Shown: in pieces, positions 2,944 through 12,952 of the stretch
Layout: the number at the start of each line of letters is the position of its first letter
How positions within the stretch are numbered: the first letter of the stretch is position 1
Assembly: GCA_023266635.1 (NCBI GenBank)
Contig: JAHFPU010000006.1
Coordinates: 1-32,345, forward strand
Length of the DNA: 32,345 nucleotides
From: Sphingobium sp.
GTDB lineage: Bacteria > Pseudomonadota > Alphaproteobacteria > Sphingomonadales > Sphingomonadaceae
Direction of reading: 5' to 3'
Made by a program: the position numbers and the translations under genes
The notes under the pieces: generated by a model
What the model saw: only the letters and a program-made list of their open reading frames with translations
The model's database searches: none
Told to the model about the DNA's origin: nothing

Positions 2944-4329
2944 TCAGTCGGCGAATGCAAAGGGAGAGAGGCCACGCTCCCGCTCGCTGAACTGGAGCGT
3001 GCGGCCACGCGGCATCGCACTGCGCTGCGTGCAATCCGGCAGTGTGCAGGCGACGCAGCCAAGCCCCACCGGCTGCGCCGCCCCCCCCTCCAGATCGACG
3101 CCCCGCGCTAGGCTCAAGGCAGCGCCGAACTCTGCCTTCAACCCGACCGACACCGAGAATATCGCGCGTTCATTGCCCAGCCCCGAGGCCTGTCCCTCGA
3201 CCGTGCGGGACAGGGTGAACCACCGCTCACCATCCTCCATCTCCACCAGATGCGGCACAATATGCCCCGGATTGCCGAAGGCGGCATGGATATCCCATAG
3301 CGGGCAGCGGCCATCGGCCTCCACCAGCGGCGCGGAGCTTGCGCCGGCATAGCGCTTCGACACCTGCCCCGCCCGGTCGATCCGCAGCATGAAGAAGGGC
3401 AACCCACGCGCGCCCACCCGCTGCAGGGTCGTCAGCCGGTGTGCAACCTGCTCGAAGCTCGCCCCGAAACGGCGCTGCAGCAGCAGGAAGTCATAGCCGC
3501 TGCCCTCGCAGGCGCGCAGGAAGCGGGCATAGGGCATCATGATGGCGGCGGCGAAATAGCCCGTCAGATGGCGGCGATACAGGCGATCGGCGGTCCGGTC
3601 GGCAAAGGCCGCGCCATTGACCAGCGCATCGATCTGGTCCCGCCCCTCCAGATCGCCGAGCAGATAGGCGGCGTGGAACAGGCGGGATGCTCCATCCAGC
3701 ATTTCCGACAGCTGCAACTGGCGCGCATGCAGGTCGAGGCGGCGTATCCTGTCCGGCAAGGTGTCGGATGGGAGTATGCGGATCGCCAGTTGATGTCTAA
3801 CCCGCAACCGGTCGGAGATCGCCCCATAGAGATCGCCCGCCGTCAGGCGCAACTCATCGGCAACCGCCTCCGCCTGCGCATCCAGATCGGCGAAATGGTT
3901 GCGCCACCGCTCAATCTCCCGGCGGACCAGCGTGATAGATCCCGCTTCCGTCGCCAGGGCGTCGCCGCCCACGCCCATCCGGTCGAACGCGCGGGCAAAG
4001 GCTTCTGCGCCGCCGGGCGCAGCCGCCAGCCATTCCTCCATTTCCGCCCGGTCAACGCCGAGGTCGGCAAACATCGGGTCGGCCAGCCTGCGCCGTAGGC
4101 CGTCCATGCCTCCACCCGGCTCCTGACCGCCAAGCCGCCGGGGATCGAAATCGAACCGCTCGGCCAGGCGCAGCATCATCGCGGCGGACAGGGGCCGCTG
4201 GTTCCGCTCGATCAGATTGAGATAGCTTGGCGAGATGTCGAGCGTATCGGCCAGCGCCACCTGGGTCAGCCCACCGGACCGGCGAAGGCGGCGGATGGCA
4301 TGGCCTGCGAAAATCTTGCTGTTGGCCAT
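2944..4329 (-). CDS. XRE-family short-chain fatty acyl regulator (ScfR/RamB/PrpR-like, DUF2083)
   Basis: N-terminal HTH AIRRLRRSGGLTQVALADTLDISPSYLNLIERNQRPLS; large C-terminal domain with several Cys near the end (GLGCVACTLPDCTQR) as in this family. Confidence 0.85.
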   Translation of the reverse strand: MANSKIFAGHAIRRLRRSGGLTQVALADTLDISPSYLNLIERNQRPLSAAMMLRLAERFDFDPRRLGGQEPGGGMDGLRRRLADPMFADLGVDRAEMEEWLAAAPGGAEAFARAFDRMGVGGDALATEAGSITLVRREIERWRNHFADLDAQAEAVADELRLTAGDLYGAISDRLRVRHQLAIRILPSDTLPDRIRRLDLHARQLQLSEMLDGASRLFHAAYLLGDLEGRDQIDALVNGAAFADRTADRLYRRHLTGYFAAAIMMPYARFLRACEGSGYDFLLLQRRFGASFEQVAHRLTTLQRVGARGLPFFMLRIDRAGQVSKRYAGASSAPLVEADGRCPLWDIHAAFGNPGHIVPHLVEMEDGERWFTLSRTVEGQASGLGNERAIFSVSVGLKAEFGAALSLARGVDLEGGAAQPVGLGCVACTLPDCTQRSAMPRGRTLQFSERERGLSPFAFAD

Positions 4330-4367: not shown

Positions 4368-4395
4368 ATTGTATGATTGTTTACAATTTTACAAT
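4368..4395. promoter_or_regulatory. symmetric four-half-site operator ATTGT-3-ATTGT-2-ACAAT-3-ACAAT
   Basis: Read directly: ATTGT atg ATTGT tt ACAAT ttt ACAAT in the divergent promoter between the ScfR-like regulator and the 50-aa ORF. Confidence 0.6.
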
Positions 4396-4497
4396 CTCGT
4401 GTCATCATTTCCCGACACTATCACATCAAATCTTTACAAAATTCCTCGCGTTCCGCCATCCGGTCGGCCACATGCTGGTGACAGAAGGAGAATGACC

Positions 4498-4650
4498 ATG
4501 ACCGAACCCACCCGTTCCCGCGCAGTCTTCTCGACCGAAGACTTTGGCCTGATGAAGGAAGCGATCGCGGACTATATCAAGAAGATCCAGGACAAGCCGG
4601 AATCGGCGAAGTTCAGCAATCTCTACCACCGCCTCGGCCGCCTCGGCTAA
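4498..4650 (+). CDS. 50-aa conserved-looking hypothetical protein
   Basis: MTEPTRSRAVFSTEDFGLMKEAIADYIKKIQDKPESAKFSNLYHRLGRLG; GAAGGAG RBS 8 nt upstream of ATG 4498; terminator-like hairpin downstream. The track's 4300 start is too far upstream and overlaps the divergent gene. Confidence 0.7.
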   Translation: MTEPTRSRAVFSTEDFGLMKEAIADYIKKIQDKPESAKFSNLYHRLGRLG

Positions 4651-4692: not shown

Positions 4693-4725
4693 GGCCCGCC
4701 ACGGTGAAGACCGTGGCGGGCCTTT
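4693..4725 (+). terminator. Rho-independent terminator-like hairpin
   Basis: GGCCCGCCACGG tgaaga CCGTGGCGGGCC, perfect 12-bp stem then TTTC. Confidence 0.7.
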
Positions 4726-4750: not shown

Positions 4751-4943
4751 AAAATTTCCGTTCGTCCTGAGTAGCCATTGAGCGAAGTCGAAATGGCGTA
4801 TCGAAGGACCGGAACTTGGTGCAACGATGCTTCGATACCGCATCGGGTGAAACATCCCCCGGATGTTTCAGGATCGTCCGGGGGACTATCCGACCCAATG
4901 CGCTTCGACAAGCTCAGTCTCTACTCAGCACCAACGGAATTTT
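4751..4943. repeat. composite inverted-repeat (MITE/REP-like) element
   Basis: Outer arms AAAATTTCCGTTCGTCCTGAGTAG / CTACTCAGCACCAACGGAATTTT are near-perfect inverted repeats; internal nested hairpins at 4849-4869 and 4855-4885. Confidence 0.7.
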
Positions 4944-4959
4944 GTAATTTCCTACCTGA

Positions 4960-6378
4960 TTACCGCACAGCCCCATCCGCAAAATCCGCCCCAATCACCC
5001 GGTACAAAGTAATCCGGTTGTTGATCGCGGTCAGTTCCGTCGCGATCGCACTCTGCCGCGCCGAATAGAGCGTGCGCTGCGACGTCAGGCTATTGAGGAA
5101 GGTGTCTATACCCGCGCGATAGCGCTGGTCGGCAAGATCATAGGATTTCTGGCTGGCCGTCAGCAAGGCCTGCTGCGCTGCCTGCTGCCGGTCGATCGTG
5201 CCCGCCCGGGCCAGCGCGTCCGCCACTTCGCTAAACGCTGTCTGCACCGCCTTCTCATATTGGGCGACATACAGGTCCCGCTGGGCCTTGCTGTAATCCA
5301 GATTGGCCTTCACCCCGCCGCCGAAGATCGGCATGCTGACTGAAGGCGCCACCGACCAGGTATGCGCGTCCCCCGTGAACAGGGAGGACAGGCCCGCGCT
5401 CGCGACGCCGATCGCCGATGTCAGGCTGATGGAGGGGAAAAAAGCCGCGCGCGCCGCGCCGATATTGGCATTGGCCGCCTTCAGCTGATGCTCCGCCTGC
5501 AACACATCGGGGCGCTGCAACAGGATATCGGAGGAAAGCCCAGCGGGCGTTTCCGCTATGCCCGGCGCAAGCGTTGCAAGCGTGCCCGGCAAAAGCGCAT
5601 CCTCGACCGGGGCACCGACCAGCAGGTTGAGGGCATTCCTGTCCTGCGCCACCTGCGTCGTACTCGATTCGACATCCGACAGCGCCTGCTGAAGCACGGT
5701 TTCTGCCTGATGCACATCCAGTTTGCCCGACAGGCCCGCTATATTGAGCGATTGCGTCAGTTTCAGCGAGCGGCCCGCGCTCGCCGCCGTATCCTTCGCG
5801 ACGGCCAGCAATTCTTGATCGGCCGCAAGCGTCGCATAGGCGCTGGCCGTTTCCGCGATCAGGGTGATGCGCGTCGATCGCGCGCCTTCCTCCGTCGCAA
5901 GATAGGTTTCCAGCGCCGCCTTCGTTAGGTTGCGCACCCGGCCGAACAGGTCGATCTCGAACGCGCTGAAGCCGACGTCCGCACTGTAGGATTCCTGGAC
6001 TCCGCTGCCCTGAAAGGCCGTATTGCCCGAGTTCGCCTGCGAATTATGGCGGAAGGTTGCGCTGCCGTCCGCCGTAATCGCCGGGAGCAGGTCGGCGCGC
6101 TGCACGCGATATTGCGCGCGGGCGGACACCACGTTCGCCAGCGTCGCGCGCAGGTCGCGATTGTTCGCCAGCGCCCGATCGATAACCGTCTTCAGCTTCG
6201 CGTCGGTCACGAGTTGCTGCCACGGCAAACCCGGCTTCTCCGCAGCCGTCTGGGCGGCATAGGCCGGTCCTTCCGGCAGCGTCGCTGGAACCGGGGGCGC
6301 TGGCCGCACATATTTTGGCGCCAGATTACAGGCAGACAGCAGCATGACCGACGCCATCAGTATAGCACGATAGGTCAT
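4960..6378 (-). CDS. RND efflux outer membrane lipoprotein (OprM/NodT family)
   Basis: Lipobox signal MTYRAILMASVMLLSACNLAPKYVRP; typical OEP repeats and GRVRNLTKAALE; 4-nt overlap with upstream permease gene. Confidence 0.93.
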   Translation of the reverse strand: MTYRAILMASVMLLSACNLAPKYVRPAPPVPATLPEGPAYAAQTAAEKPGLPWQQLVTDAKLKTVIDRALANNRDLRATLANVVSARAQYRVQRADLLPAITADGSATFRHNSQANSGNTAFQGSGVQESYSADVGFSAFEIDLFGRVRNLTKAALETYLATEEGARSTRITLIAETASAYATLAADQELLAVAKDTAASAGRSLKLTQSLNIAGLSGKLDVHQAETVLQQALSDVESSTTQVAQDRNALNLLVGAPVEDALLPGTLATLAPGIAETPAGLSSDILLQRPDVLQAEHQLKAANANIGAARAAFFPSISLTSAIGVASAGLSSLFTGDAHTWSVAPSVSMPIFGGGVKANLDYSKAQRDLYVAQYEKAVQTAFSEVADALARAGTIDRQQAAQQALLTASQKSYDLADQRYRAGIDTFLNSLTSQRTLYSARQSAIATELTAINNRITLYRVIGADFADGAVR

Positions 6379-9300
6379 GCCGGCACCTCGCTTGCGGGGG
6401 CTGGTGGGGGCATCTTCTCCGCCCGGGTGAAGAGCTTGCTCACCGTCAGGAAGAAGAGCGGCACATAGAATATCGCAAGCACCGTTGCGGTCAGCATGCC
6501 GCCGATCACCGCGGTGCCGATCGCGATGCGGCTCTGCGCGCCTGCGCCGCTGGCGATGGCGAGCGGAATGACGCCCGCAATGAAGGCCAGCGACGTCATC
6601 AGGATCGGGCGGAACCGCAGCCGCGCCGCTTCCACGGCAGAGGCGAAGGCGTTCTTGCCCTGGCGATGCGCCATTTCGGCAAACTCCACGATCAGGATGG
6701 CGTTCTTCGCGGCGAGGCCCATGGTGGTGAGCAGGCCGACCTGGAAATAGATATTATTGTCGAGGCCCCGCAGCGTCACCGCCAGCACCGCGCCGATCAG
6801 GCCGAGCGGGATGACGAGCAGCACCGCCAGCGGGATCGACCAGCTTTCATAGAGCGCAGCGAGGCAGAGGAACACGACCAGCATCGACACGCCGTAGAGC
6901 AAAGGCGCTTGCCCGCCGCTCAACTGCTCCTGATAGGATAGGCCGCTCCAGGCGAAGCTGGTGCCGGCGGGTAGTTGCTCCTGCAAGGCGACGATACGGT
7001 CCATTGCGTCACCCGAACTGGCGCCTGCACCCGCCTCGCCCTGGATTTCGTAAGAGGACTGGCCGTTGAAGCGGGACACGGTGCTCGGTCCCTTTTCCCA
7101 GCGCGTCGTCGCAAAGGCGGAGAAGGGCACCATTTCGCCCGTCGATGTCGAACGGACCTGCCAGTTATCGATATCGCTCGGCAAGGCGCGGAACGGCGCA
7201 TCGGCCTGCATATAGACGCGCTTCACCCGCCCGCGATCGACGAAGTCGTTGATATAGGTGCTGCCCCATGCCGCGCTCAGCGTCTGGTTCACATTGGCCT
7301 GGGTCAGGCCAAGGACGCTCAGCTTGGCGGTGTCGATATCGACCTTGAGCTGCGGATTATCCTCCAGCGTCGCCGCGCGGACCGAGGCCAGCGCCGGGTC
7401 CTTATTGGCCGCCGCGATCAACTGGTCGCGCAGCGCAAGGAACCGCTCACGGCTGAGGCCACCGGTATTGAGCAGTTCGAAGGTGAAGCCATTGGACTGT
7501 CCAAGACCCTGGATCGCGGGCGGCGTCATGGCGAACACCTTCGCATCGCGGATTGCGGAGAAAGCGCCCGTCGCCCGGCCCGCTATGCCCGCCGCGCTAT
7601 TGGCCTTGCCCGAACGATCGTCCCATGGCGCAAGGCTGACGAAGGCCATGCCAGTGTTCTGCCCCGAACCGGAAAAGCTGAAGCCGGAAATGGAGAAGAT
7701 ATAATTGGTGTTCGCCTTCTCGTCGTTCAGGAAATAATCCTCGACCTTGCTGGAAACGGCCCGCGTACGCTGGCCGGTCGCGCCGGACGGCAGGGTATAT
7801 TGGACCATGTCCATCCCCTGGTCCTCGACCGGCAGGAAGCTGGTGGGCAGCCGCACGAAAGTGAACCACAGCACCACCAGCACGAGCGCATATCCCGCCC
7901 AATAGATCCAGCGACCGTTCATGACCTTCTCTACGCCGCCGACATATTTTTCGGTCGTGCGCCCGAACCAGCGATTGAAGCGGCCCGCCAGTCGCCCGGC
8001 CAGCCCCTTCTCCTCCATCTCCGGGTCCTTGGGCTTCAGCAGCGTCGCGCATAGCGCCGGGGACAGGATCAGGGCGACGACCACCGACAGCGCCATCGAC
8101 GACACGATCGTGATCGAGAACTGGCGATAGATGACGCCCGTCGATCCGCCGAAAAAGGCCATGGGCAGCAGCACGGCGGACAGGACCAGAGCGATACCGA
8201 CCAGCGCGCTGCCGATCTCCTCCATCGACTTCACGGTCGCGTCGTGCGGAGAGAGATCCTCCTCCTCCATCAATCGCTCGACATTTTCGACCACGACGAT
8301 GGCGTCGTCGACCAGCAGGCCGATGGACAGCACCATGCCAAACAGGGTCATGGTGTTGATGGAATAGCCGAATAGCGCCAGCACGCCGAAGGTGCCGAGC
8401 AGCACGACCGGCACCGCAAGCGCCGGGATCAGCGTCGCCCGCCAGCTCTGCAGGAACACGAACATGACGATGATGACCAGGATCACCGCCTCGACCAGCG
8501 TCCAGACGACCTCCTCCACCGACACTTTGATGAAGGGCGTGGAATCGCGGGGATAAGCGACGGTGTAGCCGCTGGGCAGGTCTTTCGACAGTTCGGCAAC
8601 CTGCGCCTTTACCAGCTCTGCGGTCTTGAGGGCATCCGCGCCCGGCGCGAGCTGCAGCGCCATGCCGGACGCCGGATGCCCGTTCATGCGGGCGTTGGAC
8701 GTGTAGTTCTCGTTCCCCAGTTCGACCCGCGCGACGTCCGACAGGCGCACGATCGATCCATCGGTCTGCGTCTTGACGATGATGTTGCGGAACTGCTCGG
8801 GTGTTTCCAGGCGCGACTGCGCGGTCACCGTCGCGTTCAGCTGCTGCCCTTCAGGGGCCGGCTCCTGCCCGATCTGGCCTGCCGATATTTCGACATTCTG
8901 CGCCTGGATGGCGGTCTGGACATCGGACGGCATCAGCTTGACCGCAGCCAGCTTATAAGGGTCGAGCCAGACCCGCATCGCATATTGTGATCCGAAGATG
9001 CGGCTGGTGCCCACACCGGTGACGCGTGAGATCGGGTCCTGGAAATGATTGACCAGATAATCGGAAATGTCGGACTGCTTGGACTTGTCCGTCGTATCGT
9101 ACAGCCCCACCAGGATCAGGAAGTCGGTCTGCGCCTTGGTGACGGTCAGGCCCTGCTGCTGCACGGCGCTCGGCAACCGGCTCAGCGCCTGCTGCACCTT
9201 GTTCTGCACCTGCACCTGAGCAGTATCGGGATCAGTGCCCTTCTCCAGCGTGACGCTGATCCGCGCCGAACCGTCGGAACCCGACGTGGAGGAAAAATAC

Positions 9301-9530
9301 AGCAGGCCGTCGATGCCGGTCAGCTGCTGCTCGATCACCTGCGTAACGCTGGTCTCGACGGTCTCTGCCGAAGCGCCCGGATAGGTGGCGCTGATGCTGA
9401 CCGATGGCGGCGCAATATCGGGATATTGCGCGATCGGCAGCGTCATGATCGAGCCCAGGCCGGCAAGCATGATGCCGATGGCAATGACCCATGCGAAAAT
9501 GGGCCGCTCGATGAAGAATTTGCTGAGCAT
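6375..9530 (-). CDS. RND multidrug efflux permease (HAE1/AcrB-MexB family)
   Basis: 1051 aa, MLSKFFIERPIFAWVIAIGIMLAGLGSI...; GLLVDDAIVVVENVERLM, AAKNAILIVEFA signatures. Confidence 0.97.
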   Translation of the reverse strand: MLSKFFIERPIFAWVIAIGIMLAGLGSIMTLPIAQYPDIAPPSVSISATYPGASAETVETSVTQVIEQQLTGIDGLLYFSSTSGSDGSARISVTLEKGTDPDTAQVQVQNKVQQALSRLPSAVQQQGLTVTKAQTDFLILVGLYDTTDKSKQSDISDYLVNHFQDPISRVTGVGTSRIFGSQYAMRVWLDPYKLAAVKLMPSDVQTAIQAQNVEISAGQIGQEPAPEGQQLNATVTAQSRLETPEQFRNIIVKTQTDGSIVRLSDVARVELGNENYTSNARMNGHPASGMALQLAPGADALKTAELVKAQVAELSKDLPSGYTVAYPRDSTPFIKVSVEEVVWTLVEAVILVIIVMFVFLQSWRATLIPALAVPVVLLGTFGVLALFGYSINTMTLFGMVLSIGLLVDDAIVVVENVERLMEEEDLSPHDATVKSMEEIGSALVGIALVLSAVLLPMAFFGGSTGVIYRQFSITIVSSMALSVVVALILSPALCATLLKPKDPEMEEKGLAGRLAGRFNRWFGRTTEKYVGGVEKVMNGRWIYWAGYALVLVVLWFTFVRLPTSFLPVEDQGMDMVQYTLPSGATGQRTRAVSSKVEDYFLNDEKANTNYIFSISGFSFSGSGQNTGMAFVSLAPWDDRSGKANSAAGIAGRATGAFSAIRDAKVFAMTPPAIQGLGQSNGFTFELLNTGGLSRERFLALRDQLIAAANKDPALASVRAATLEDNPQLKVDIDTAKLSVLGLTQANVNQTLSAAWGSTYINDFVDRGRVKRVYMQADAPFRALPSDIDNWQVRSTSTGEMVPFSAFATTRWEKGPSTVSRFNGQSSYEIQGEAGAGASSGDAMDRIVALQEQLPAGTSFAWSGLSYQEQLSGGQAPLLYGVSMLVVFLCLAALYESWSIPLAVLLVIPLGLIGAVLAVTLRGLDNNIYFQVGLLTTMGLAAKNAILIVEFAEMAHRQGKNAFASAVEAARLRFRPILMTSLAFIAGVIPLAIASGAGAQSRIAIGTAVIGGMLTATVLAIFYVPLFFLTVSKLFTRAEKMPPPAPASEVPA

Positions 9531-9539
9531 CGGTCCGCC

Positions 9540-10673
9540 TTACTTGCCGGCCGTGATAGCGACGGGCTTTACCACAGCGCCAGGCGCCGCCTTGTCCGTG
9601 CCTTCGACGATCAGCTTGTCCCCGGCCTTGAGACCAGAGGTGATCAGCCATTTGTCGCCGATCGCCTGGGCGGCAACCACGGTGCGGCTCTCCACCTTGT
9701 TATCCTTGCCGACGACCAGCGCGGTCGCATCGCCCTTTGCGTCGCGGGTAATGCCCTGCTGCGGCGCGAGGATGGCGTTGGGCAGGACGGACTGCGGCGC
9801 GACGACGCGCACGAACATGCCGGGGAGCAGCATGCCGTCCGGATTGGGGAATTGCGCGCGCAGGGTCACGGTGCCGCTGTTCACGTCCACGATCGGCTCG
9901 GCGAACTGGATGGTGCCGGTCTGTGGATAGTCCGTTCCGTCGTCCAGCTTCAGGCGGATCGTCGCGCTGGCAGGCAGCGCCTTGCCCGAAGCCATCGCGC
10001 GGCGCAGCTCCAGGAGCTTGGAGCTGGACTGGGTGATGTCGACATAGATGGGATTGAGCTGCTGGATCGTCGCCAGCGGATCGGTCTGGCTGGCGGTGAC
10101 CAGCGCGCCCGGCGTCACGACCGAACGGCCGATCCGGCCGCTGATCGGCGCGAACACGCGGGTGAAGGCCAGGTTGATGCGCGCGGTCTGCAACGTGGCT
10201 GACGCCTGCTTGACCGAAGCATTTGCCTGCCGGGCGGCGGCGATGACATCATCATTATCCTGCCTGCTGACGGCTTCGGTATCATTGAGGCCCTTGTATC
10301 GGTTGGCCTTCGCCTGCGCTGCAGCCAGTGTCGCCTGGGCATTGGCGAGCTGGGCGGACGCCTCGTCCCGCGACGCGGTGTAGAGCTGGGGGTCGATCTG
10401 ATAGAGCGGCTGGCCCGCCTTCACCATCGACCCTTCCGTGAACAGGCGCTTCTGGACGATGCCGGCCACCTGCGGACGCACTTCGGAGATCATGAAGGCA
10501 TTGGTGCGCGCGGGCAATTCGGTCGAGACGGTGACCCGCTCGGTCTTCAGCGTCAGGACGCCCACTTCCACCGGCCCGCGCTCGGGCGGCTTCTTGGCTC
10601 CACATCCTGCGAGCAGGATGCTGAGGGCGATGGGAGCTAGGATACGGGTATTGACGGGCAAGAGCTTCACCAT
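9540..10673 (-). CDS. RND efflux periplasmic adaptor (AcrA/MexA family)
   Basis: Lipoprotein signal MVKLLPVNTRILAPIALSILLAGCGAKK supports start at 10673 rather than 10802; PLYQIDPQLYTASRDEA and AFTRVFAPISGRIGRS motifs. Confidence 0.93.
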   Translation of the reverse strand: MVKLLPVNTRILAPIALSILLAGCGAKKPPERGPVEVGVLTLKTERVTVSTELPARTNAFMISEVRPQVAGIVQKRLFTEGSMVKAGQPLYQIDPQLYTASRDEASAQLANAQATLAAAQAKANRYKGLNDTEAVSRQDNDDVIAAARQANASVKQASATLQTARINLAFTRVFAPISGRIGRSVVTPGALVTASQTDPLATIQQLNPIYVDITQSSSKLLELRRAMASGKALPASATIRLKLDDGTDYPQTGTIQFAEPIVDVNSGTVTLRAQFPNPDGMLLPGMFVRVVAPQSVLPNAILAPQQGITRDAKGDATALVVGKDNKVESRTVVAAQAIGDKWLITSGLKAGDKLIVEGTDKAAPGAVVKPVAITAGK

Positions 10674-10785
10674 GTGCAAGTGGCCAACATGTAATAAGGA
10701 TATGCAGCTGAACGCTTGTCGCGGTGCAGCATAGACAATTTTGGTGTCTTGATTGCACAGTACGGTCGTTGCAACCGACAGTTCC

Positions 10786-10810
10786 GTATCGTCATGTATC
10801 ACACTGTATC
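10786..10810. promoter_or_regulatory. three GTATC direct repeats at 10-bp phasing, candidate OmpR-family regulator site
   Basis: GTATC gtcat GTATC acact GTATC at 10786, 10796, 10806, in the intergenic region between efflux operon and two-component genes. Confidence 0.55.
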
Positions 10811-10862
10811 AGGCGGGGTCCGGCAAGCAGACTTTCGGCCAAGCCTGTATTAGAACGCCCCT

Positions 10863-11585
10863 ATGTCCGATCCGACCCCACAGCCGCGCATCGTCGTCGT
10901 CGAGGACGATGAGGATATTCGCGATCTCATCATCGGGCAGCTCCAGCGCGAAAATTATGAGGTGGAACCGGCGGCGACGCTGGGCGAACTGCGCGCCATA
11001 TTGCAGGACAAGGTGGTCGACCTGCTCGTGCTGGACCTCAACCTGCCGGACGGCGACGGCCTCAGCCTCTGCCGGGATCTGCGGGCGGAGGGCTGGTCTG
11101 TCGCCATCATCATGGTGACGGCACGGGGCTCCGCGATCGATCGCGTGCTTGGGCTGGAGTTGGGCGCGGACGATTATCTGACCAAGCCGTTCGAGCCGCG
11201 CGAATTGCTCGCCCGCGTGCGCAACCTGTTGAAGCGGACACGCACCGATACCGCCACCCGGCCCGCCAACGCGCGGACAGTGGTCATCGGGCCATGGCGG
11301 TTGGATTTGTATCAGCGCCGGTTGATCGCGCCGGACGGCAAGCTGGTCATGCTCTCCTCGGCCGAATTCCGTTTGCTGGGACGCTTCGTCGATGAACCGA
11401 ATACCGTCCTGTCCCGCGAAGCGTTGCTCCCCGAAAGGCGCGCGACCGTGGCGTTCGACCGGTCGATCGACCTGCAGGTCAGCCGCCTGCGGCAGAAGCT
11501 GGCGGCGATACCGGGTGGCGAGGAGCTGGTGCTCACCGTGCGCAACGAAGGCTATGTCCTCGCCTCGCCCGTCCGGTACGAATGA
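10863..11585 (+). CDS. OmpR/PhoB-family response regulator
   Basis: Receiver (VVVEDDEDIRDL, LLVLDLNLPDGDG, GADDYLTKPFEPRELLARV) plus winged-helix DNA-binding domain. Confidence 0.95.
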   Translation: MSDPTPQPRIVVVEDDEDIRDLIIGQLQRENYEVEPAATLGELRAILQDKVVDLLVLDLNLPDGDGLSLCRDLRAEGWSVAIIMVTARGSAIDRVLGLELGADDYLTKPFEPRELLARVRNLLKRTRTDTATRPANARTVVIGPWRLDLYQRRLIAPDGKLVMLSSAEFRLLGRFVDEPNTVLSREALLPERRATVAFDRSIDLQVSRLRQKLAAIPGGEELVLTVRNEGYVLASPVRYE

Positions 11586-12952
11586 CGATGACGCCTATCC
11601 GCAGCATCGTGCGATTTTTGCGATCCATGGCAGGGCATATCTTCGTGCTGCTGACTGTCGGCATGTCCGCCGCCGCCATCCTGTCTCTTTACATCGCGGA
11701 ACAGGCTCGCAAGCATGATTTCGAACGGCTCCGTACGCAACGCGTGATCGCAAGCGCCGCCGATGTCGCACAGCGCCTGCAACAGAATCCTGAGCGCATA
11801 GGCGCTATGCTGGCGGCGCAACAGATTATGGGTGCAGCCCTCGCACCCGACGGAATTGCGCTGACCAAGCCGGACTCGATCCTTAAGACCGCGCTAGAGG
11901 AGCGGTTCGGCCCACATGCCGATCCGGAAGCCGGCCAGGTGCCTACGGGGTTTTGTTTTCCCGCGATCAAAGTGAATTTTAAGGAACGCGCGGCGGGGCT
12001 GATCGGCGCGCCCCGCCCCGACTGTTGGATCGTCCGTTTCACGGATCAGACGGGAGAAAGGCGGTCGATGGCCATCTATCTCCCGCACATCGCGATCGCG
12101 CCCAGTTCGACGCTCAATCCGCTTTATCTGCTGCTGATTGTGGCATCGAGCGCAGGTCTGTCGATCATAGTCGCGCGCTTCGTGTCGAAGCCGCTGCGGC
12201 GGCTGGAGAAGGCGGCAGAGGCCTTTTCCGTTTCGCTCGATCCCGAACCGATATCCGAGCGTGGGCCAGAAGAAGTCCGGGCAGCGCTATCCACCTTCAA
12301 CATGATGCAGCAGCGCGTGCGCGAAGGGTTCCTGGAACGCACGCAGCTGCTTGCGGGCATCGGCCACGATCTTCAGACGCCCCTGACGCGCCTGCGGCTA
12401 CGGCTGGAACAGGTCGAGGATACAGCCCTTAAAGACCGACTGATTCATGATCTGTCTGCCATGCAGACGCTCGTGCGGGAGGGGCTGGACTTGGCGAGCA
12501 GTGCAGACTCTGGCGAGGATTGGTCCCTTATCGACATCGATTCCCTGCTGGCGAGCATGGCGGAAGATGCCCAGGAATTCGACAGCCCCGTCACCTTCCT
12601 CTCCGGCTGCGGCGGCACCGTGCGGGTCAAGCCCAATGCCCTGCGCCGGTGTATCGGCAACCTCGTCGATAATGCCGTCACCTATGGCGGCAGCGCCGAA
12701 ATCGCCTGCGCACGCGAAGTCGGCAAGCTGGTCATCACCGTGCGCGACCGGGGCAAGGGGATCGACGAAGCCTTGCTGGACAAGATGTTCGAGCCTTACA
12801 CGCGCGGCGAGGCGGGACAGGCTGGCGGCCGGGCGGGTACGGGCATCGGGCTGACGATCGCGCGAACCCTCGCCCTGACCTTCGGCGGCTCCGTCAGATT
12901 GCGCAACGCGCCCGATGGCGGCGTCATCGCCTCCATCAGCATCAAGGAATAG
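11582..12952 (+). CDS. sensor histidine kinase (EnvZ-like)
   Basis: Two TM segments, HAMP-like region, H-box [20 protein letters not shown]-box [24 protein letters not shown]; 4-nt overlap with response regulator. Confidence 0.94.

Follow-up and report, generated by a model that had tools for sequence, protein, structure and literature searches.

A candidate operator of an ScfR-family regulator in Sphingobium and its occurrence in orthologous regA and relocated aceA promoters

Two regulators provide the closest described systems. In M. tuberculosis, PrpR (also RamB) is a tetrameric protein that binds a [4Fe4S] cluster and CoA (PMC6765138); it regulates icl1 and probably its own gene (PMC3420887, PMC6765138). 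RamB of P. denitrificans, a class 2 RamB and member of the ScfR family that can act both as an activator and as a repressor of the glyoxylate operon, binds two boxes of TNACA-like half-sites (PMC10370305). The experimentally tested boxes carried by its wild-type oligonucleotide are TGACAAACCTTACAG and TGACAATACTGACTG; each is a direct pair of half-sites with a 9-bp period, and the two are 18 bp apart (PMC10370305).

The locus considered here lies in a 32,345-nt stretch of Sphingobium sp. DNA, which as a whole is referred to below as the window. An earlier note, made from the letters alone, had proposed a symmetric operator of four ATTGT/ACAAT half-sites between an ScfR-like regulator and a 50-aa open reading frame. 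The features of the region are as follows.

2944..4329, minus strand: regA, ScfR-family regulator of 461 aa (assigned by Pfam and alignment to PrpR structures)
4368..4395, minus strand: proximal box, TGTNA-N3-TGTAA-N6-TNACA (comparison of 84 promoters)
4389-4393, 4380-4385, and 4370-4374, minus (regulator) strand: half-sites TGTAA, TGTAAA, and ATACA of the proximal box
4376..4380, no strand assigned: inner-right ACAAT as read on the regulator strand, the second ATTGT of the earlier note; not conserved
4396..4497, no strand assigned: remainder of the divergent promoter region; aceA, divergent in most relatives, is missing here
4423..4438, minus strand: distal box, TTTTGTAAAGATTTGATGT region on the regulator strand, kept at −43 to −28 from the proximal box
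4498..4650, plus strand: orf50, conserved 50-aa protein, predicted helical hairpin (codon comparison, distribution, AlphaFold2)
4693..4722, no strand assigned: G+C-rich stem-loop of 13 pairs after orf50, with a T-rich tail on the minus strand

The regA gene is intact, and its product follows the ScfR domain plan, with HTH_3 (PF01381), IrrE/M78-like (PF06114), and ScfRs C-terminal (PF09856, 159 bits) domains all scoring over the Pfam gathering scores. Residues 143–449 align to the M. tuberculosis PrpR structures (E = 2e-45). All four Cys ligands of the [4Fe4S] cluster are conserved: the CVACTLPDC and GRCPLW segments line up with those of PrpR, which are arranged as C-x2-C-x4-C with one further Cys upstream. 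The domain plan and the C-x2-C-x4-C ligands are thus shared with PrpR/RamB (PMC3420887, PMC6765138). Against the RamB equivalog model NF038139, regA scores 293 bits, which is under the curated cutoff of 700. The nearest relatives of regA are found in Sphingobium and other Sphingomonadaceae, the closest being that of S. phenoxybenzoativorans (88% identical).

The 28-bp element and its counterparts in orthologous promoters

The element ATTGTatgATTGTttACAATtttACAAT occupies positions 4368–4395 with no mismatches to the noted arrangement ATTGT-atg-ATTGT-tt-ACAAT-ttt-ACAAT. It lies 39–66 bp upstream of the regA ATG (4329) and ends 103 bp ahead of orf50 (start at 4498), so the distances given in the earlier note were also correct. 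No other match with up to three mismatches exists in the window, and 100 shuffles yielded none. The genome-wide scan that the note had suggested, performed, like all our scans of this kind, by pattern matching, revealed no second copy in the 3.0-Mb genome to which the window belongs (78% complete). When exact 5-mer nested double palindromes were searched for freely, the 28-mer was again the sole instance in the window. With free spacers, 4 of 200 random windows of the same composition (2%) contain such a palindrome; among random versions of the local AT-rich 90 bp, 1 in 20,000 does. The symmetry of the 28-mer is therefore above chance, yet less extreme than the fixed-pattern count implies.

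To see what relatives keep, we used 84 non-redundant upstream regions orthologous to the regA promoter. The motif TGTNA-N3-TGTAA-N6-TNACA, which corresponds to positions 3–7, 11–15, and 22–26 of the 28-mer on the regulator strand, was present at 12 or more of its 13 bases in 61 of these promoters and in none of the shuffled regions. Changing the spacing by 1 bp led to the loss of most matches; a minority of loci have N5 instead of N6 in the right-hand gap. In the collected sites, whose base frequencies are biased upward since they were picked by the pattern's own positions, the outer ATTGT/ACAAT pair is 83–89% complementary and symmetric about the very center proposed in the earlier note, G12 and T13 of the inner half-site are invariant, and columns outside the picking pattern are skewed as well (A at position 16 in 57 of 73 sites; T or G at position 23 in 66 of 73). 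Two observations here count against a regA operator: in 11 of the 84 promoters, no more than 9 of the 13 bases match, so that a good site is lacking, and the right half-site of the window, CATACA, is a weak form of TTTACA/TTGACA.

The other inner half-site behaved differently from the outer pair. G is invariant at position 12, but the C that would pair with it at position 17 occurs in just 1 of the 72 other sites, making the pair complementary in 1% of them; relative to the 20-base pattern of the earlier note, orthologous sites differ at 3–11 positions. In S. phenoxybenzoativorans, the closest relative, the region of 4376–4380 is AAATT, and the whole site reads GTTGTAAATTTGTAAAAATTCATACAAG. 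A fourth half-site downstream of the right arm was not found in regA promoters (columns 29–38, 17 sites). The four-fold ATTGT/ACAAT arrangement was ruled out as a conserved unit by the orthologous promoters. Since the inner-right half-site is absent in orthologs, including the nearest relative, the perfect four-fold appearance is, by this comparison, a private addition of the window genome over a conserved three-half-site box. The outer pair and one inner half-site belong to the conserved site as judged from this footprint, and the half-site at 4376–4380 is private; the symmetry first noticed largely holds for its outer pair and fails for its inner one. Overall, the window site is very probably a genuine operator that is conserved and belongs to a known regulator family. 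The earlier suggestion of a putative, plausibly autoregulatory operator beside an ScfR-type regulator is thereby upheld, while its four-part symmetry is not.

A second element, TGTNAA-like or TNACAAA-like, is found upstream of the 28-mer at −43 to −28 and in fixed phase in orthologs. In the window, this distal box contains TTTACA at 4433–4438 on the plus strand and is ~50 bp from the proximal box, center to center. By sequence, the two boxes of TNACA/TGTNA half-sites match the P. denitrificans RamB operator in kind, not in geometry. Common to both systems are an ScfR-family regulator, tetrameric in P. denitrificans and presumably so here, divergence from glyoxylate-cycle genes, and two boxes of TNACA-like half-sites (PMC10370305). 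In contrast to the direct pairs of P. denitrificans, the proximal box here combines a direct pair of 8-bp period with an inverted half-site, the distal box is much farther off, and aceA is missing from the window locus. Layout and distance thus depart from the two near-identical boxes, 18 bp apart, of a class 2 RamB operator.

The half-sites had been thought to differ from those of RamB/PrpR-type regulators, and this held only in part: M. tuberculosis PrpR recognizes TTTGCAAA palindromes 1 bp apart (PMC3420887, PMC6765138), whereas the window half-site is TGTAA; TGTNA/TNACA is, however, also the half-site in the tested P. denitrificans RamB boxes. To our knowledge, the predicted layout of three half-sites plus a phased second box has not been reported previously. 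PccR of Rhodobacter sphaeroides reportedly recognizes the motif TTTGCAAA-N4-TTTGCAAA (Carter and Alber 2015). The conserved inner pair of the window, TTTGTAAA-N4-TTTACAAA, has equal spacing but carries T/A for C/G at the box centers, and the target genes are other ones.

Relocated aceA genes, regB, and a sister regulator group

Most relatives have aceA (isocitrate lyase) divergent from regA, with the 50-aa gene next in line behind aceA. Five genomes (that of the window, S. phenoxybenzoativorans, G236, G158, and G203) lack aceA at the regA locus, and there the 50-aa gene is directly opposite regA. Comparison of these loci indicates that the two-box operator is ancestrally placed between the ScfR regulator and aceA, with the 50-aa gene downstream of aceA. 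G236, G158, and G203 form a single clade in the aceA tree (100/98 support), and no ScfR gene was detected within 1.5 kb on either side of their relocated aceA. In G236 and G158, the motif is nevertheless found 111–112 bp upstream of aceA, with 0 and 1 mismatches; the relocated aceA promoters carry both boxes in the same phase, −41 to −42 (counted by eye). In G203, the left half-site has decayed, which counts against the operator reading, and the motif is missed at one mismatch.

Scans of whole genomes allowing one mismatch yielded two matches in G158, which are the regA and aceA promoters, and three in G236, two of which are these promoters. Since a reversed-pattern control gives 0–3 matches per genome, it is the position of the matches rather than their bare count that carries the argument about relocated aceA. 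In some lineages, a different isocitrate lyase family (NF011645 instead of NF005074) lies behind the same operator. Judged from these arrangements, the operator persists when another gene comes to lie behind it.

In both the window genome and S. phenoxybenzoativorans, aceA adjoins another ScfR gene, regB, whose product is ~39% identical to regA and scores 368 bits with NF038139 (cutoff 700). In the window genome (G000), regB is divergent from aceA on contig 123 (L088:3357-6551), and the promoter element there has the same half-sites: the regB site, TGTAATGTTGTAA-N5-[AG]TACAAACC, is similar to the window site and spaced differently. Across the family, aceA and its ScfR partner have changed several times.

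A sister group of Sphingobium ScfR regulators, ~40% identical to regA, is divergent from the same 50-aa gene and shares the 8-bp direct half-site period. Unlike the regA promoters, these loci (L104, L105, L106, and L201-L218) contain a full nested four-half-site palindrome, GGTCATNNTGTCATNNNATGACANNATGACC, in the intergenic region between the ScfR and 50-aa genes. Eighteen of 19 Sphingobium sites score 20–24 of 24, with a shuffled maximum of 17. In the loci shown, the palindrome ends a few bases from the ATG at the regulator start, and its inner spacing, TGTCA-N5-TGACA, is unlike that of the window 28-mer. By this comparison, the four-half-site architecture is real in this regulator family, but not in the regA branch.

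Readings of the window site

We consider it likely that the window site is the main binding box of a regA operator. This reading is based on sequence comparison: the motif is conserved and in phase with a second box, it lies beside regA and aceA, and it recurs where aceA has been relocated; from these, we infer protein binding, autorepression, occupancy by a tetramer, and sensing of CoA esters. A regA dimer would most likely read TGTAA-N6-TNACA, whose half-site centers are 11 bp apart, about one DNA turn. The other DNA-binding domains of a tetramer may, as in RamB/PrpR, contact the additional TGTNA, which is 8 bp upstream, and the distal box that lies in phase. The earlier idea of a dimer of dimers or a tetramer agrees with the tetrameric state of the nearest solved relative of the regulator, though the four-half-site symmetry adduced for it is not conserved. 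In most relatives, 0–15 bp separate the end of the proximal box from the regA start (38 bp in the window), and autorepression is predicted from this position at the regulator start; repression of regA would be the simplest effect of binding there. Together with the distal box, it could form a switch by which acyl-CoA controls the divergent gene, which was isocitrate lyase in the ancestral arrangement and is orf50 alone here. Such acyl-CoA-dependent activation or repression is suggested by analogy with RamB and PrpR (PMC10370305, PMC6765138).

The same DNA can be read in other ways. In one of these, regB is the main user of the box and regA a decaying orphan. The position of aceA beside regB in the same genome, with a similar site there, counts against the assignment to regA, as either protein might use the window site. 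The regB site shares its half-sites and its TACAAACC end with the window site, and the recognition helices, SPSYLNLIERNQRP and SSSYVALLERNQRP, are alike. Yet the regA gene is intact, its product sharing 88% identity with the ortholog in S. phenoxybenzoativorans, and the geometry of the window site is that of the regA group, not of the regB group; we regard this possibility as unlikely. Another proposal is that all four ATTGT/ACAAT half-sites around one center are bound jointly by two dimers or a tetramer. The exact symmetry is there in the window, and the sister ScfR genes (18 of 19 sites) indicate that the family can use this layout. Against it stand the loss of the inner-right half-site in orthologs, the different internal spacing of the sister palindrome, and the crowding of the inner ATTGT-tt-ACAAT, whose centers are only 7 bp apart and which overlaps the conserved TGTAAA. 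This makes joint binding of the four quite unlikely.

An AT-rich symmetry that arose by chance within a divergent promoter, with overlapping −35/−10 elements, would be in line with the two promoter-like matches that overlap the region and with the 2% of random windows containing a generic double palindrome. It is very improbable given that the motif is conserved across the 84 promoters in the proportions given above and recurs at relocated aceA genes. The preferred reading, a regA operator, gives the glyoxylate-shunt regulators of an entire bacterial family a testable candidate operator, one that may outlive the loss or relocation of its target gene. That related ScfR regulators are paired with a three-part operator in one group and a four-part operator in its sister could help to explain how DNA is occupied by a tetrameric regulator.

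The 50-aa protein and neighboring sequence

The 50-aa open reading frame is a real conserved gene: 15 synonymous and 0 nonsynonymous codon differences separate it from its S. phenoxybenzoativorans counterpart, and 10 residues are invariant in 27 sequences. AlphaFold2 predicts a helical hairpin (mean pLDDT of 86), for which a structure search returned only non-significant helical hairpins; comparison with Pfam and NCBIfam gave no match. In the genus, orf50 is present in 88 of 94 genomes, at least 86 of which have it next to an ScfR gene. Exactly the six genomes that lack a RamB-like ScfR (best ScfR match weak or absent) are also without orf50, and none of these six has a full-length isocitrate lyase from the 531-aa family. 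Across the bacterial family, orf50 occurs in 76 of 151 genomes and in 0 of the 17 without any isocitrate lyase match, these co-occurrence counts being raw and uncorrected for relatedness; shared ancestry and joint loss of the neighborhood could explain part of the association. Since orf50 is found only where isocitrate lyase occurs, we tentatively suggest that it might be a partner protein dedicated to the glyoxylate shunt, perhaps modulating isocitrate lyase or the ScfR protein, and still under ScfR control after aceA had left. It is in any case an unstudied conserved protein tied to isocitrate lyase.

Farther along the window, a repeat-like intergenic stretch at 4760–4920, CCTGAGTAGCCATTGAGCGAAGTCGAAATGG ... 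TTCGACAAGCTCAG, resembles a dispersed palindromic repeat. It is followed at 4960–12952 by genes of an RND efflux pump (outer-membrane subunit, permease, and adaptor), which are divergent from an OmpR/EnvZ-like two-component pair.
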